Part shown: in pieces, positions 13,011 through 39,190 of the stretch | Numbering within the stretch: position 1 is the first letter of the stretch | How the letters are laid out: the number at the start of each line of letters is the position of its first letter | Source: Okeania sp. SIO2C9 | GTDB lineage: Bacteria > Cyanobacteriota > Cyanobacteriia > Cyanobacteriales > Microcoleaceae | Direction: 5' to 3' | DNA length: 64,000 nucleotides | NCBI RefSeq assembly: GCF_010672455.1 | Contig: NZ_JAAHGO010000012.1 | Coordinates: 198,361 to 262,360, forward strand | Notes under the pieces: model-generated | Database searches by the model: none | Seen by the model: the letters and a program-made list of their open reading frames with translations, nothing else | What the model was told of the DNA's origin: nothing | Position numbers and translations under genes: made by a program

Positions 13011-15326
13011 TTACAATGCATCGGTAGAACCTTTCAACTCACAAACCATTCCAGAACAAGCGGGGTCTTGAGGTCCCATCTCTGGTAATTCACTCGCTAA
13101 CACATAAGCATTCATCAACTCTGAAAAATTATCGGACTTGCGACGACGCAATACATCTTCTTGCATTTTTTCATATTCCTCCTCAGATATATGTTCAAAT
13201 GGCAACCGGGGAAATGGTGCATCAAACCGCGCCAACAATGCTGAGGAAATATAACCTTCATCATCGCGAATTGCTTCATAAATGCGTTTGCCCAAAGGTT
13301 CGATTTCTGCCTCCGTTAATAAAATGGTACTGCTGCTGTTGTGAGTTGTCCAATGTTGTTGTACTCCCATGTAAAAGTCAAACATCGCAGTAGCGCTGAA
13401 CTTCTCAATGGCAATTTCTTCAACTCCAGGTAAATCTATCCAAGATACCTGTACTGGAATTTCTACTAACCATTCTTTAGCGCGATCGTCAAAAGGATCG
13501 TTCAGTAAATTTCCATTTTCATCTTTGCTTGACTGTCCTGGAATCACGGAATAACCATAGTCAAGACAAGCTAATGCTACGGGGTCGTTTTTGGCAAAAG
13601 TAATTCGTCGTACCCAGCGCAACCCAAAAGGTGGGTGCCAACCGGGAGCTGCATTTGTTAATAGAGATTTGGTATTATGTGACTTCAAAGCACCTTGCCA
13701 ATACCAGGAGTCGTTATCATCTATACCCTCAATGGCAAAATCGTAAGAGTAGTCACACACTGCTCCAATATTAACAGACTCAATTTTGTATGGTGAAAAA
13801 CTGAATATGCGCTTAGGTGGAAGTAGGGGTTGTTCCTGACATTTGATACTCTGTTGATTGAGATCATCTAAAGCGTCAGCATTAGACAACATTGGACTCA
13901 GACATAATCCCCACATATCCTTCTGTTGTGATTGCAAGTTCTCACCTTTAGTATTCTGATATATGCTGAAACAGAGTCCGATCGCTTCTCCTATTTGTTG
14001 TAGGTTGCTAATAAAATCAGAGCTAGCTGAATCTATGGATAGTTTTCCATCCTTACGCACACATCCATCAGTATCTATCAGACCACAGAAAAATGATAGC
14101 AAGGTAGCTCGTGAGGAACGACGTAAACTCACAGGTATCCGGTCTAAGTCTTTACTTTTCTCAGTTTTTGCAAGTTGGTTTAGGTGTAACCAGTCAAATA
14201 ACTGTCGAGAAGCAAAGGACAATTCAAAACGACCGTTACCAAGGTCATTTATATTGCCTGCGATGCCAAATAATTTTTTGCCCTTTTCTTGGAGGCGATG
14301 CAAAATATCAAGTCTACTATGAGAAAAATGAATTCGATATTTATTCTCAGGACTTACGCAAATTGACTTTTCAACCACCATTTGTAGGGGCGAATGGCAT
14401 TCGCCCTCCCTATATGTAGAGTCTCTGCGTAAGTCCTGATTCTGAGAAATGCAACCATTCCCAAACAAACAACCTAAAAAGTAAGCTAGGTCTGAAGTCA
14501 TAGTTGCAGGAGTCACGATTTCTTTGGTTAATACACCACGGTTATGACCTAATGTTTGAGAATGTTTTACCCTGGTATAATTTTCTAACTGCAAGGGTAT
14601 TAGTAAGGCATTTTCTTGTTTTTGATATTCACCAATACTGTAGTCAAGCAACATTCCTGGTTGAAGATCGCAAGCATATACCCACTTACCTTCGACGCTC
14701 ATCCGATGGTTGGGAGTCATGCGTAATGTCCGACCATTAGCTAGTTTGATTTCTACAAGTTCCAGTGGTTGATTAGCGATCGCTGTGGATGCTCCTATTC
14801 CATTGCGAACGGTTAATTCTAATCCTACTGTTTCTCCACTACCAGGTGCTACTATTTCATCTGCATAGAGTAAACCTTGGTTAAATATTCTCAATGCTGT
14901 TTTGTCAAGACAACCGGAAGGTTGAACTGTTGTACAACGGTTTGGACGTTTGAGGTTGTGGCGATCGCAATATTCCCACACTACCTGATGGACTATTTCG
15001 CGCCAACGACTTAAATATTCTGCTTCCTGTTGTTTAAACTCTAGACCTTGAGCGGTTGTTGGACGACCTGCTTGCCACCAACGCAACCATTCAATGCCAA
15101 AAGCTTTTACACAAAAGTCAAATAAACCTGTAAAAGATACTCCCACAATTGGGTCTAATTCTCGACTATAACGATAGCGAGGTTCGACGAATTTATGGTT
15201 AAGTAAGGTTGCCACAGAAAGGGCGCCAGCAGTAAAAGCTTCCTCCTGTTCTTTATGATTATTTGGGTCAATTTGATTCAGATGAATTTCTGACAAATTG
15301 CAGTGGAAGTTTGAGCCAATAATTTC
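13011..15326 (-). CDS. nrdJ: Class II ribonucleotide reductase, exon 2 (C-terminal part, with intein 2)
   Basis: Second exon of the adenosylcobalamin-dependent ribonucleoside-triphosphate reductase. It resumes as EIIGSNFHCNLSEIHLNQ directly after the intron, continues to TTVQPSG, is interrupted by intein 2, and resumes TKSLLTNAAPGWHPPFG. It ends with the redox pair CSGMVC close to the C-terminus, which in this family re-reduces the active-site disulphide. Without inteins and intron the protein would be about 765 residues (407 + 358), close to Lactobacillus RTPR. The frame taken alone appears to start at a TTG (15,329) that is really the last intron bases. It turns over ribonucleotides in the cytoplasm. 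Confidence 0.9.
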   Translation of the reverse strand, partial: EIIGSNFHCNLSEIHLNQIDPNNHKEQEEAFTAGALSVATLLNHKFVEPRYRYSRELDPIVGVSFTGLFDFCVKAFGIEWLRWWQAGRPTTAQGLEFKQQEAEYLSRWREIVHQVVWEYCDRHNLKRPNRCTTVQPSGCLDKTALRIFNQGLLYADEIVAPGSGETVGLELTVRNGIGASTAIANQPLELVEIKLANGRTLRMTPNHRMSVEGKWVYACDLQPGMLLDYSIGEYQKQENALLIPLQLENYTRVKHSQTLGHNRGVLTKEIVTPATMTSDLAYFLGCLFGNGCISQNQDLRRDSTYREGECHSPLQMVVEKSICVSPENKYRIHFSHSRLDILHRLQEKGKKLFGIAGNINDLGNGRFELSFASRQLFDWLHLNQLAKTEKSKDLDRIPVSLRRSSRATLLSFFCGLIDTDGCVRKDGKLSIDSASSDFISNLQQIGEAIGLCFSIYQNTKGENLQSQQKDMWGLCLSPMLSNADALDDLNQQSIKCQEQPLLPPKRIFSFSPYKIESVNIGAVCDYSYDFAIEGIDDNDSWYWQGALKSHNTKSLLTNAAPGWHPPFGLRWVRRITFAKNDPVALACLDYGYSVIPGQSSKDENGNLLNDPFDDRAKEWLVEIPVQVSWIDLPGVEEIAIEKFSATAMFDFYMGVQQHWTTHNSSSTILLTEAEIEPLGKRIYEAIRDDEGYISSALLARFDAPFPRLPFEHISEEEYEKMQEDVLRRRKSDNFSELMNAYVLASELPEMGPQDPACSGMVCELKGSTDAL
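13674..14912 (-). other. Intein 2 of NrdJ (413 residues, LAGLIDADG type, disrupted by a MITE)
   Basis: Inserted between QPSG and TKSLLT. It starts with Cys (CLDKTALRIF), has a block B-like TPNHRMSVEGKWVYACDLQPG, two dodecapeptide motifs, LAYFLGCLFGNGCI (degenerate: Asn replaces Asp) and LSFFCGLIDTDGCV, and ends with ALKSHN before Thr+1. Terminal residues C1, H-N and T+1 suit protein splicing. A 91-bp repeat plus a 5-bp duplication adds 32 residues just after the first, degenerate endonuclease motif. I infer that splicing persists while the endonuclease is probably dead. Confidence 0.85.
14348..14438. mobile_element. CAGGACTTACGCA MITE, 91 bp, inside intein 2
   Basis: 13-bp perfect terminal inverted repeats CAGGACTTACGCA / TGCGTAAGTCCTG enclose a CGAATGGCATTCGCC palindrome. 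A 5-bp target duplication ATTCT flanks it (14,343-14,347 and 14,439-14,443). Element plus duplication is 96 bp, exactly 32 codons, and no stop is introduced in the intein frame. Confidence 0.92.
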
Positions 15327-16584
15327 CAATTTTTTTGTTATCCTAAAGGCTTTTTATCCTCTAGTTCTACAGATTCATTTCCCTGTAGTTCCGAGTACAT
15401 TTTCTACAAGTGAATGAAAGTAAAAAAGAATTTCTTTGCGATTAGTTTGATATCCAAGAAGAGCTTTACTTACTGTTCTTTCATCTTTAATGCCAAATTC
15501 TTTTTCAATTTGGTCATAAAATGGTCTAAGAACTGATATGATTTTATTGACTTTACAACTTAGGATAGATTGAGCATGGTTTTTAGCAAAATCTAAAGCT
15601 AACTTTTGGATTAGGAAAGATTTATCGCCAGAGATTTTCGAGAACTTAGCAGTATTTGAGCAACTATAAGAGCAATATTTTTGAGGTTTATTCTTTCTAA
15701 ACAGAACCTCAAACTCTTTTCCACAATGGTGACAGGTAACAAAAACTTGATACTGTCTAAGCAAGTTATAAGCTTTCAACCGTTCATTTTGTTTCTGTAC
15801 CTTTGCACTGTTTCTTCTACCCTCCAACCATTTACTTTTATACTCTGAATCTTTCATCCTAGATTTTGCTTTAGCAGAAATTTTAGCTCTAGTGATATTG
15901 GAAACCTTGGCTCCATAACGTGAGTTATTTTTACCTGAAGTATCCATACCCAAACCTTTCGCTATTTGTTTCCACTCTTGTTTTAGATGCTCATAAACCA
16001 TTGGTGTAGAAGCAATTAACTGTCTCAAGTCTTTTTCTTGAATTATTTTAACTGTAACCCCGTAGTCTTTTTCAAAACACTTTATTCGGGGTAAATCAGT
16101 TTGATAATTAAAACCACCTTTTACCTCAACATAAGAGCCATCAGAAAGCATGAAATCAGGTTTGTATGATCCACCTGTAGATAGGTCGAAAATTTTGACT
16201 TCGTATTCCCAGTGGATTTCTTTGTAATCAAGGTATCTGGCATAAATATACTCTAAAGTTGACTTGAGATAGTGTCCTCTATAATGACCGCAATAGGTTC
16301 TTCCATTCATATCTTGTAGCCCGACACTCTTGGGGAATTTATATTCTCTATAATATCCTAAAATTTCAAAATAAAGTAACTATAAATATTACTTTTTTCT
16401 GAGTTATTACTAACATCAAAATAATCAATGTAATGATTTTTTGATTAATTTTAAGGATATGTTGTAGAGTTTCATTCCCTACTCTGTACGGTGCTAGAAG
16501 GTGTTATCCTCTCTAGTTACCACGGGATTGGCATCGCAGCTTTCCCCGTTTTTGCCGGGTGATTAACGTGAGGCAAAATCAACT
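15327..16584 (-). ncRNA. Group I-type self-splicing intron in nrdJ (1,258 nt)
   Basis: Exon 1 ends ...AACCCGTGTGGT and exon 2 starts GAAATTATTGGC, so splicing restores the catalytic loop NPCGEIIG. The exon ends in U and the intron ends in G, as in group I introns. An internal guide GCCTCACG, ten bases into the intron, pairs with exon CGTGTGGT and gives the diagnostic U.G pair at the splice site (P1, 7 of 8 pairs). A P4-like pairing ACGGG/CCCGT surrounds AAAGCTGCGATGCC. The unspliced frame meets TGA two codons into the intron. I did not resolve P7, so the subgroup is open. Confidence 0.85.
15375..16310 (-). CDS. Intron-encoded PD-(D/E)XK homing endonuclease with NUMOD3 and zinc finger
   Basis: 311 residues inside the nrdJ intron. 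Residues about 25-70 contain a PD-(D/E)XK nuclease core, YKPDFMLSDGSYVEVKG, preceded by Glu in LEYIYARYLDYKEIHWEYEV, as in the I-Ssp6803I group of cyanobacterial intron endonucleases. Residues about 128-150 (NNSRYGAKVSNITRAKISAK) resemble a NUMOD3 DNA-binding repeat, and CHHCGKEF...KYCSYSC near 194-220 is a zinc-binding pair. It would cut intronless nrdJ alleles and drive intron homing. The core looks complete, so it may be active. Its stop is 48 bases from the 3' splice site. Confidence 0.82.
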   Translation of the reverse strand: MNGRTYCGHYRGHYLKSTLEYIYARYLDYKEIHWEYEVKIFDLSTGGSYKPDFMLSDGSYVEVKGGFNYQTDLPRIKCFEKDYGVTVKIIQEKDLRQLIASTPMVYEHLKQEWKQIAKGLGMDTSGKNNSRYGAKVSNITRAKISAKAKSRMKDSEYKSKWLEGRRNSAKVQKQNERLKAYNLLRQYQVFVTCHHCGKEFEVLFRKNKPQKYCSYSCSNTAKFSKISGDKSFLIQKLALDFAKNHAQSILSCKVNKIISVLRPFYDQIEKEFGIKDERTVSKALLGYQTNRKEILFYFHSLVENVLGTTGK

Positions 16585-18987
16585 ACCACACGGGTTTAAC
16601 CCTAATCTTGCTAACCGATGTTCGAGTTCATCATTACTAATATTTGGATAGTGTTCTTGAAACCATTTTTTGGCATTATCTTCTCCATAAGCTTTCAGGA
16701 AATCTCTCTTTATTTCTGGGGTTGAAACTAGATCGCGATTAGCACGAGCAACTGCTTCACCTGCCCACTGAATCGCACCTTCACCAGAATAAAACTGTTT
16801 TCTCACCGCCTCAACAGATTCTTCTAATGTTGGTTTGTGATGGAAAACATGGGTATGATTTGCCATTCGCAGAGCATCTCTTTCTGGATCAATTCCCCAG
16901 TTACCGTTTTCATCTTGTCGCCAGAGATTATCCTTCGCTACAGCAAAGAGGCGATCGCTACTATTTCCTTGCCTCATACCCGCACTGTTGGCCACTAAAA
17001 CTCCTTCACAAACAAATTCATGGATACTGGCAACTTCAATATCATAAGTTGATGCTTCTCTCACATCCATCTCAACTTTTTTCACTTTTACTGGAATCAA
17101 ATCTGTAGCATCAGCGACAAATTTCTTCACAGTAGGAGCAATCATTTGCTTTTGAGAGTTGTTCCAGTGATATTGATAAGTATTTACCAAAGGTCTAACC
17201 ATTTCCTTTGGAAATCCATGATCTTTGAAACATTTAGGGCGATTTCGTTTTTGTACTGGAAACTGAGTAGAGTAACTCATCATTAGTTTTTCTACTGCTT
17301 CAAAAGCACTCTCACCTACAGTTACTAACTCACCTTCCGACTTTCCAGTTCGCTTGCGCACCGAACCACACAATCTCGTGGTAATTCCTAAAGATGCGTA
17401 TAATGCTTGCACCTGTCGCAGAAAGTCTTGGTAAACTGAAGCTACCAGTACACCCTGAGAATGACAACCATCTGCGTCTGCTAAACCTGCTAAATAAGCT
17501 TGACGAATTTCTTTTGTTCCCATCAAAATACAGTCAGGAATCGTAATAGAAGTAAATGACTGTTTAAACTGTGAGAGATATTTATTCAGAATGCTGCTAT
17601 TTAACTGAAGTTCATAAGCTGTGGTTTTACATTGTTCTGGGGTTCTCAGTGTATGTGTTTCCAAACCAAATTCTTGAGCAACATTAATCAGTCGTTCCAG
17701 AATTTCCGGACTATCCTGGTGGACTCGAAATATGACTCGCGTTCCATCTGAGGCAATCGATCCATCTCCATGCAAATATCCCAGAAAATAAGCAACTTCA
17801 CTGGTAAGAGCGGGTACTGTTATTGATTTTGCACCATGGGAAGTGACGCCTTTCAACTCAGGGAGTTCGGTGGGAGTACCGGGTATTGCTTGAGGCACAA
17901 AAATCAGGCGATCACCCTCTTGCAAGTCTTTAGCTTTTATCATTTTATAGTTACCATACAAATCTTGCAGCACGGCAACTTTATGATCGGCAGTACATTC
18001 AAAATATCCGTCTTCTGTTTGAATTCGAGATAAAGACTGAGTACCCTGATCAAAGAAATTTGTTACAGGATAAAATCCTTTGCTGGTTAATACGCGATCG
18101 CCTATCCGAATTTTTTCAATAGATACTAACCCCGATGTTGTATGTACTAAGGAACCTTCTGGTAAACAGCGGCGAATATTTCCGGCGACAATTGTCACTG
18201 CTGCTTCATCAATTAACAAACAACACTCCACAGAATTTAATTGTCGCCCAACTGCTTGATTTAAAATATTCCCACAACGTTGATACAATTCTGGCAATTT
18301 TACCGGGTTCGCAACACCACCAAATCCTTTTAACTGTTCTCCCGCAGGTCTAACATCGCTCAAATCAATAATGACTTTGACTTCACCGGAAAATCGTTCA
18401 TCGGTTGACAATTCTAACAAAGCTTGATACGAACCTACCCAACCTTGACGACTGTCTCCAACATAAATTTCTACCTGGTCTCCATCGAATTTTAGTTCTG
18501 TGAACTCCCGACGTAATTCAGCAGGAGTAGAACCAATTTCACCCCGCAATGTCAGATTTAATTGATTTCTAATTGGTGGCAGTTGATTTATATAATCTCC
18601 TTCCAATACTGCTCCGGTACCGCAACCCATCATTGCTAAGTCCATTAATAGACCAAAGGCACGCCAGTCCATTATATTTGTGGACGAACAATTATAGGCC
18701 CCTGAAAAATTTTGTGGTTGTGTAATCCATTCTGTGCCACCGACCCACAACCAACGGCCAGAGGACATGGCCTTTAGTTGACTTTGCATCCGATAGAGTA
18801 AGTCTGTTTCTTCGGGGGTCAGTTGGCCTAACTTTCTCAGGCCATTAATCGTGCGATCGCATACTTCTACCCAAGTCTCACGGCCATTTTCTGTTTTACG
18901 GCTATAAGTTCGATAGAATACTGGATTTGCTGTAGGTGCTGTTTCGGGAAATTCACCCTGATTTACTCTCTCTAGTTCTCGTACCAT
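16585..18987 (-). CDS. nrdJ: Class II ribonucleotide reductase, exon 1 (N-terminal part, with intein 1)
   Basis: First exon of the B12-dependent reductase that makes deoxynucleotides. It starts MVRELERVNQGEFPETAPTA, and contains WVEVCDRTINGLRKLGQL, the GRWLWVGGTEWI segment, NFSGAYNCSSTNIMDWRAFG and MGCGTGAVLE typical of the monomeric RTPR type, then GNIRR, intein 1, and SAGMRQGNSSDR. It ends at the active-site loop LGLNPCG, where the catalytic Cys lies, and is joined to exon 2 by intron splicing. Without splicing, translation would stop after NPCGS. No cobalamin riboswitch is apparent in the upstream 200 bases. Confidence 0.92.
16987..18168 (-). other. Intein 1 of NrdJ (394 residues, LAGLIDADG type, apparently intact)
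   Basis: Inserted between GNIRR and SAGMRQGN. It begins CLPEGSLVHTTSGLVSIEKI (block A), has TADHKVAVL (block B), two endonuclease motifs VAYFLGYLHGDGSI and QAYLAGLADADGCH with both acidic residues, and ends VASIHEFVCEGVLVAN with Ser+1 (blocks F and G). The penultimate residue before the terminal Asn is Ala instead of the usual His, a known variation. Splicing and homing functions both look plausible. Confidence 0.9.
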
Positions 18988-38807: not shown

Positions 38808-39190
38808 GGGGTAATACTAAATCTCAAAAAGTTTGCTATGTATCTTTGTAATGGGAAGATGGAGAGATGGTAATTAAACATAGCATTACTATTCAGAAAA
38901 GGTTTTATTTGACAAACAGTTTGATGATATTGAAGAAGGCAGCTATGCTGTTTGCACAGCATTCCCTAAGAAAGGGGAAATTGCATGGGGTAGGGGCGAA
39001 TGGCCATTCGCCCCTACAGGATTTTGGTTGTGACATGAGGTCAGAGATCGGCAAAAGTGCTATAAACCCGCTACAGAAAAGATAATAGTTGATCGGGACT
39101 TACGCAGAGACTCTACATACAGAGAAGGCGAATACCATTCGCCCCTACAGATGGTGGTTTCAAAGCCAATTTGCGTAAGTCCTGAGCATA
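38808..39190. other. Spacer with palindrome and MITE
   Basis: TAGGGGCGAATGGCCATTCG continues into CCCCTA, a perfect 26-bp palindrome at 38,991-39,016. A CAGGACTTACGCA-family MITE follows at 39,094-39,184. No gene. Confidence 0.6.
39094..39184. mobile_element. CAGGACTTACGCA-family MITE, copy 4 (91 bp)
   Basis: CGGGACTTACGCA / TGCGTAAGTCCTG ends with GCGAATACCATTCGC inside; the same length as the intein copy. Confidence 0.8.

Follow-up and report, generated by a model that had tools for sequence, protein, structure and literature searches.

The Rickettsia palindromic elements are protein-coding palindromes that are inserted in frame into genes at high frequency, as outlined in a review (PMC10969869). 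A MITE of another kind, Correia-like and with TATA ends, has been described inside the group I intron of dsrA in Candidatus Thiomargarita nelsonii (PMC4853749). To judge by its title, a study by Meng, Zhang and Liu (2007; cited in PMC3984707) reports an IS element in a group I intron of a bacterial RNR gene. The locus presented here, a 91-bp MITE within an intein of a B12-dependent RNR gene, resembles each of these systems in part. As in Rickettsia, in the review's account, a short palindromic repeat lies in frame in a gene and is translated; however, the present family is found mainly outside open frames and is mostly closed by stops, and its host intein should remove the peptide (PMC10969869). 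As in the Thiomargarita intron, so far as it is described there, a MITE is nested in a self-removing element of a metabolic gene, but that host is an RNA intron with no frame to keep, whereas here it is an intein, the element is translated and its ends are of the IS701 type (PMC4853749). The title of the 2007 study likewise points to an RNR gene whose self-splicing element harbours a transposable element, there an intron with an IS and here an intein with an in-frame MITE (PMC3984707). In-frame palindromes and a MITE in a self-removing intron are already known; what we describe adds to them a well-supported and recurrent case of a MITE in an intein, rather than a new mechanism. Among the matches listed in the open-access literature (subscription papers being outside its scope), none was recognised as describing an intein with a MITE or IS in it.

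The window, that is, the whole stretch of 64,000 nt of DNA that was analysed from the filamentous cyanobacterium Okeania sp. SIO2C9, carries the RNR gene in two open frames, with the MITE in intein 2 (Table 1). It is very probable, in our judgement, that the MITE is a passenger which the intein tolerates in a surface turn of its endonuclease domain and which protein splicing removes, the latter as judged from the splicing residues. An IS701-family transposase acting in trans would have moved a stop-free, short, non-autonomous copy into the intein gene, with a 5-bp duplication and a total gain of 96 bp. The precursor of RNR would have gained 32 residues in a turn far in sequence from the splicing blocks and, if the intein still splices, the MITE-derived peptide would leave with it and the mature RNR would be unchanged. 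The endonuclease was probably past cleavage, so the insertion would have cost the intein little.

Table 1. Features of the RNR gene and of the inserted element, in window positions
Feature	Position	Strand	Basis or remark
RNR gene, 3' open frame, holds intein 2	13011..15329	-	TIGR02505 match
RNR gene, 5' open frame, holds intein 1	16579..18987	-	PF14890, PF14528
Intein 2 of the B12-dependent RNR gene, inserted at QPSG^T	13674..14912	-	413 codons, 32 of them from the MITE and one duplication copy
C-terminal splicing residues HN, then extein T	13674..13679	-	sequence, alignment
Second LAGLIDADG motif LSFFCGLIDTDG, intact	14064..14099	-	alignment
Target-site duplication, left copy ATTCT	14343..14347	.	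sequence; family boundary
MITE CAGGACTTACGCA...TGCGTAAGTCCTG, 91 bp	14348..14438	.	perfect 13-bp terminal inverted repeats 14348-14360 and 14426-14438; family in own genome
Target-site duplication, right copy ATTCT	14439..14443	.	sequence; family boundary
First LAGLIDADG motif LAYFLGCLFGNG, with N in place of the acidic residue	14454..14489	-	10 bp beyond the duplication
TPNH, presumed splicing block B	14706..14717	-	alignment

The sequence-only reading had proposed a clean insertion with perfect 13-bp terminal repeats and a 5-bp ATTCT duplication, and both are present. Thirteen base pairs is also the boundary throughout the family; the repeat finder extends the arms to 14 bp through a coincidental pairing of one duplication base. 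The element and one duplication copy do add up to 96 bp, or 32 codons, with no stop in the intein frame. That the fit is exact is true, but for this element it is no matter of luck: 91 bp is the length of 30 of the 50 family copies examined, and 91 + 5 is a multiple of three. Removing the insertion restores GCISQNKYRIHF, as had been claimed, the flanks with a single duplication copy giving an intein of 1143 nt; alleles from Okeania, Hydrocoleum and Trichodesmium have the same length. The empty site matches in length and frame, not letter for letter, four of the eight bases at the insertion site (CTCAGAAT) being different in the Okeania/Hydrocoleum alleles (L100-L103; three read CTGAACAC and one reads CTAAACAC). 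Overall, the two nearest alleles differ by about 5%; the four differences here may reflect chance, an earlier event at the site or conversion. The protein varies at this place among alleles (EH, KH, QN, PH and others). In the transcript, the element adds a strong hairpin (-44.9 kcal/mol, z -7.35), which could slow translation.

An intein at the same site was found in seven relatives (G049 among them), and a further scan gave 13 loci, 12 of them covering the site. Altogether, with six records that coincide with others counted once, 13 distinct alleles outside the source genome cover the position (L134, which ends before it, was left out). The sequence-only reading would have fallen had homologous inteins of unrelated taxa carried the same 32 residues here; none of the 13 does. 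The nearest alleles, from Okeania SIO3B5 and SIO1I7, are 95.6% and 95.1% identical at the DNA level with the insert left out.

Inteins splice through a first cysteine (C1), TxxH and a terminal HN, followed here by T. Intein 2 has all of them, with TPNH as what we take to be block B, and its splicing residues are unchanged. The earlier view that the frame was kept and the splicing blocks were left alone is thus borne out. Pfam Intein_splicing gave no match at E 0.001, and the splicing domain was assigned by residues and alignment. Intein 2 sits between QPSG and TKSLL, and its ends are fixed because QPSGTKSLL is unbroken in five relatives (G002, G003, G021, G025, G028), so that the intein is a precise in-frame insertion which some alleles lack. 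A fold search with an uninserted allele was headed by TliVMA inteins, with PI-PfuI in third place (E 8.7e-10 to 1.6e-07; TM-scores low, about 0.3). From these residues, the inserted intein is expected to splice. If it does, it constitutes a natural insertion experiment that marks a position in a LAGLIDADG intein able to take 32 foreign residues, a position useful for intein engineering, and it shows how a transposon can shelter in an important gene while staying out of the mature protein. Close relatives offer alleles with and without the insert, which makes this directly testable.

A degenerate first endonuclease motif, GNG for GDG, had been noted beside the insertion. The degeneracy is real, but the link to the insertion does not stand. 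All five uninserted alleles from Okeania, Hydrocoleum and Trichodesmium have N for D, so GNG is older than the insertion, and a tie between the insertion and loss of the motif is ruled out; D is kept in all seven other full-length named alleles. The D at this position is presumably a catalytic residue. In this clade the two acidic LAGLIDADG motifs are thus reduced to an intact motif 2, with N for D in motif 1. The endonuclease of intein 2 is probably inactive, cleavage having been lost already before the insertion; an intein needs no active endonuclease to be one. Values of dN/dS were 0.11-0.23 for the whole intein against the five nearest alleles and 0.10-0.27 for the endonuclease region against five relatives, each spanning the whole branch and thus more than the time since the insertion. 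For the endonuclease region, GNG alleles compared with one another (15 pairs) gave 0.10-0.31, compared with 0.06-0.20 in the five non-saturated pairs out of 21 from the other clade. A freely decaying endonuclease domain is unsupported by the range in GNG alleles, and the region is still constrained, perhaps slightly less so than in the clade that keeps D.

A model of the uninserted allele places a LAGLIDADG helix at residues 140-149, followed by strands at 155-156 and 161-166, with a confidence of 72-86 in this block. The model was built from a 14-row alignment (13 rows uninserted) and is of medium confidence (mean pLDDT 58.3, the endonuclease half being better); it suggests that the insertion lies in the turn that joins strands one and two, in the N-terminal half of the LAGLIDADG domain. 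Alignment to TliVMA likewise puts the site in a short turn after the motif. On the LAGLIDADG fold, this turn would lie on the DNA-binding face. The model of the inserted form was unusable (mean pLDDT 39.5).

A MITE of the same family was found in a different intein, at site LNP^C, of the RNR gene of relative G002. This copy is also 91 bp long, with an exact TGAAT duplication, so that it again adds 96 bp. It has the other orientation and uses another frame than the copy in intein 2, and is also in frame with its host. Okeania SIO3I5 (G016) has a MITE at the same place in the LNP^C intein, with decayed ends and TGAAT/CGAAT at its borders; among the alleles compared, those of G001, G003, G004, G034, G010, G025 and G028 have none there. 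The frames holding the MITE-bearing intein in these two relatives are open over 1912 and 2547 codons; the open frame of G016 is less than the whole gene, as the gene start is in a separate frame. G002 and G016 belong to two different GTDB genera and share both this intein and a rare intein-1 allele. Windowed identity between the two around the MITE showed no clear recombination block. MITE-bearing inteins can therefore persist long enough for the ends of the element to decay, and this persistence is the best available sign that such inteins still splice.

These two relatives also bear on an alternative that we consider improbable, namely that the insertion crippled splicing or folding and that the RNR gene is being lost while another RNR class supplies dNTPs. 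A further insertion does split the gene, leaving two open frames, as would fit decay. Yet the intein-bearing frame is stop-free with its splicing residues unchanged, and both G002 and G016 retain an open RNR frame whose intein carries a MITE. Nor was a second class II copy found in the genome: both open frames match the model for adenosylcobalamin-dependent (class II, B12-dependent) RNR, TIGR02505, with scores below its cut-off because each is only part of the gene, and all four matches to this model in the genome fall inside the split gene. Of the description of the gene as essential, what stands is that a search of the genome for class II RNR genes turned up no other.

The interruption itself is about 1.25 kb long (15330-16578), begins just after NPCG and contains an ORF of 311 codons that matches Phage_endo_I weakly and below threshold. 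A group I intron carrying a homing endonuclease gene is one possible reading, its 5' part being intron-like by eye; Rfam gave chance-level matches only for 15300-16650, with no intron among them. The RNR frame of G022 starts shortly before EIIG and may share this interruption.

The mobile origin of the element is seen from its family. Exact ends at the MITE spacing occur at 49 places in the genome (10.9 Mb, 317 contigs), and family statistics refer to 50 distinct exact-ended copies, the intein copy included. A chance palindrome is dismissed because the same family occurs dozens of times in the genome. An exact 5-bp direct repeat lies at the CAGG/CCTG boundary in 36 of the 50 copies, the intein copy among them, compared with none for 3 bp, three for 4 bp and two for 6 bp. 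The exact-ended pattern is found in 32 of the 61 genomes of the family that were searched, source genome included. A transposase-fragment query gave nine matches, corresponding to six transposase-bearing places of 1343-1605 bp, all with exact MITE ends (the same 13 bp) on both sides and five with an exact 5-bp duplication. One of these keeps a near-full-length frame of 336 codons that scores 374 bits against the IS701-family model (NCBIfam NF049921; cut-off 250). Unlike these relatives in the same genome, the MITE lacks a transposase, and beyond the ends it matches them only over about 29 bases at one end, its last 29 bases being identical at 26 or 27 positions in five of the six. Terminal inverted repeats, a duplication of fixed length, many short copies and an autonomous relative that shares its ends mark the element as a MITE of an IS701-family IS, whose transposase, if active, would mobilise it in trans. 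A second, diverged copy is present in the window (39092-39189, with the end CGGGACTTACGCA); aligned with the intein copy over 98 bp, it shows 90% identity.

The less usual part of the insertion is not its length of 32 codons but that the copy is stop-free in the frame required. The genome has 42 other copies that share 85% identity or more with the one in the intein, and 30 of them carry a stop (29 TAA, 1 TGA) at one and the same codon of the intein frame, which is GAA in the intein copy and in three others. Twenty-eight copies of this set are full-length and ungapped; 22 of these have a stop in the intein frame and six are open, so a stop-free variant existed as a minority. Over all 50 copies, 20 of 300 readings by strand and phase are open when flank-overlapping codons are counted, and 32 of 300 inside the element only (10 of 180 for 91-bp copies).

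These counts weigh on a further alternative, which we regard as highly improbable: that the element is adapted to coding regions like the Rickettsia palindromic elements and that its peptide is functional. Three of the 50 copies lie in reading frames, taken as frames that exceed the element by 70 codons or more, or joined frames of at least 120 codons. Two of them are in frame and open, which speaks for such an adaptation; these are the intein copy and one in a polyketide synthase gene of the same genome, with an exact ATATT duplication and an exact empty site in G001 and G004. The third interrupts its frame near one end. The frame used in both genes (frame 0) is also the most open (17 of 100 strand readings), and the copy in the LNP^C intein has been kept in two species. 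However, the other 47 copies lie outside reading frames so defined, the proportion of open readings inside the element is lower than in random sequence of the same base composition (17.8%), and the two LNP^C copies are identical at 80 of 91 bases, no better than their surroundings at roughly 90%. A coding palindrome of the Rickettsia type is accordingly rejected as a family trait, the readings being mostly closed. The few in-frame copies are consistent with a pattern left by selection against frame-breaking insertions, although the number is small. One intein among two in-frame open cases out of 50 copies is only suggestive of enrichment in inteins; at the 12 PF14890 loci of the genome, an incomplete set that misses the two RNR inteins, no element ends were seen within 2 mismatches.

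An assembly artefact at a repeat is scarcely credible, since in spite of a draft genome of 317 contigs rich in copies of the element, the target duplication is perfect, the frame is preserved, and the 91-bp element, probably shorter than the reads, sits inside an 855-kb contig.

Returning to the MITE as a tolerated passenger, a broader and rather doubtful extension would be that, in these cyanobacteria, short mobile repeats land time and again, and safely, in turns of the first LAGLIDADG half of inteins, and that passenger-bearing inteins can pass between species. As part of this idea, the same MITE family would have entered two RNR inteins independently, orientations and frames being different and each site lying in the first half of the endonuclease domain. 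Repeat-like insertions directly behind GDG, or replacing it, are found in two further RNR-gene inteins in relatives or in an intein of another gene in this genome.

In the NFH^C intein of the G016 RNR gene (L171 / L103), GDG is replaced by repeat-like sequence, SVISYQLSVIS... NVGWVERSETQHAPYC, and the DNA core of its second part occurs at 24 places in G016 with at most one mismatch, the NFH^C site included. The LNP^C intein carries repeat-like residues directly behind GDG in L169, L163, L170 and L171 (G001, G002, G004 and G016, respectively). They read EVRSQPTPNPSQEG in G001 and G002, EVRSK in G004 and a shorter EVRNQ form in G016, and are absent from the alleles compared in G003, G034, G010, G025 and G028. 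In the source genome, EVRSQKSEVRS stands directly behind the GDG-type motif of an intein at about C24:484356 (L175 / L182), in a gene that is dnaE-like by eye.

Copies of the MITE were also seen in other genes of relatives. In G016 (L107, C168:1588-3054) one is read in frame close to the N-terminal end of a protein resembling glycosyl hydrolases (GHL10), before a hydrophobic segment. Another, in G031 (L108, C212), lies in a gene that is TPR/CHAT-like by eye, its frame being split by a stop inside the element.
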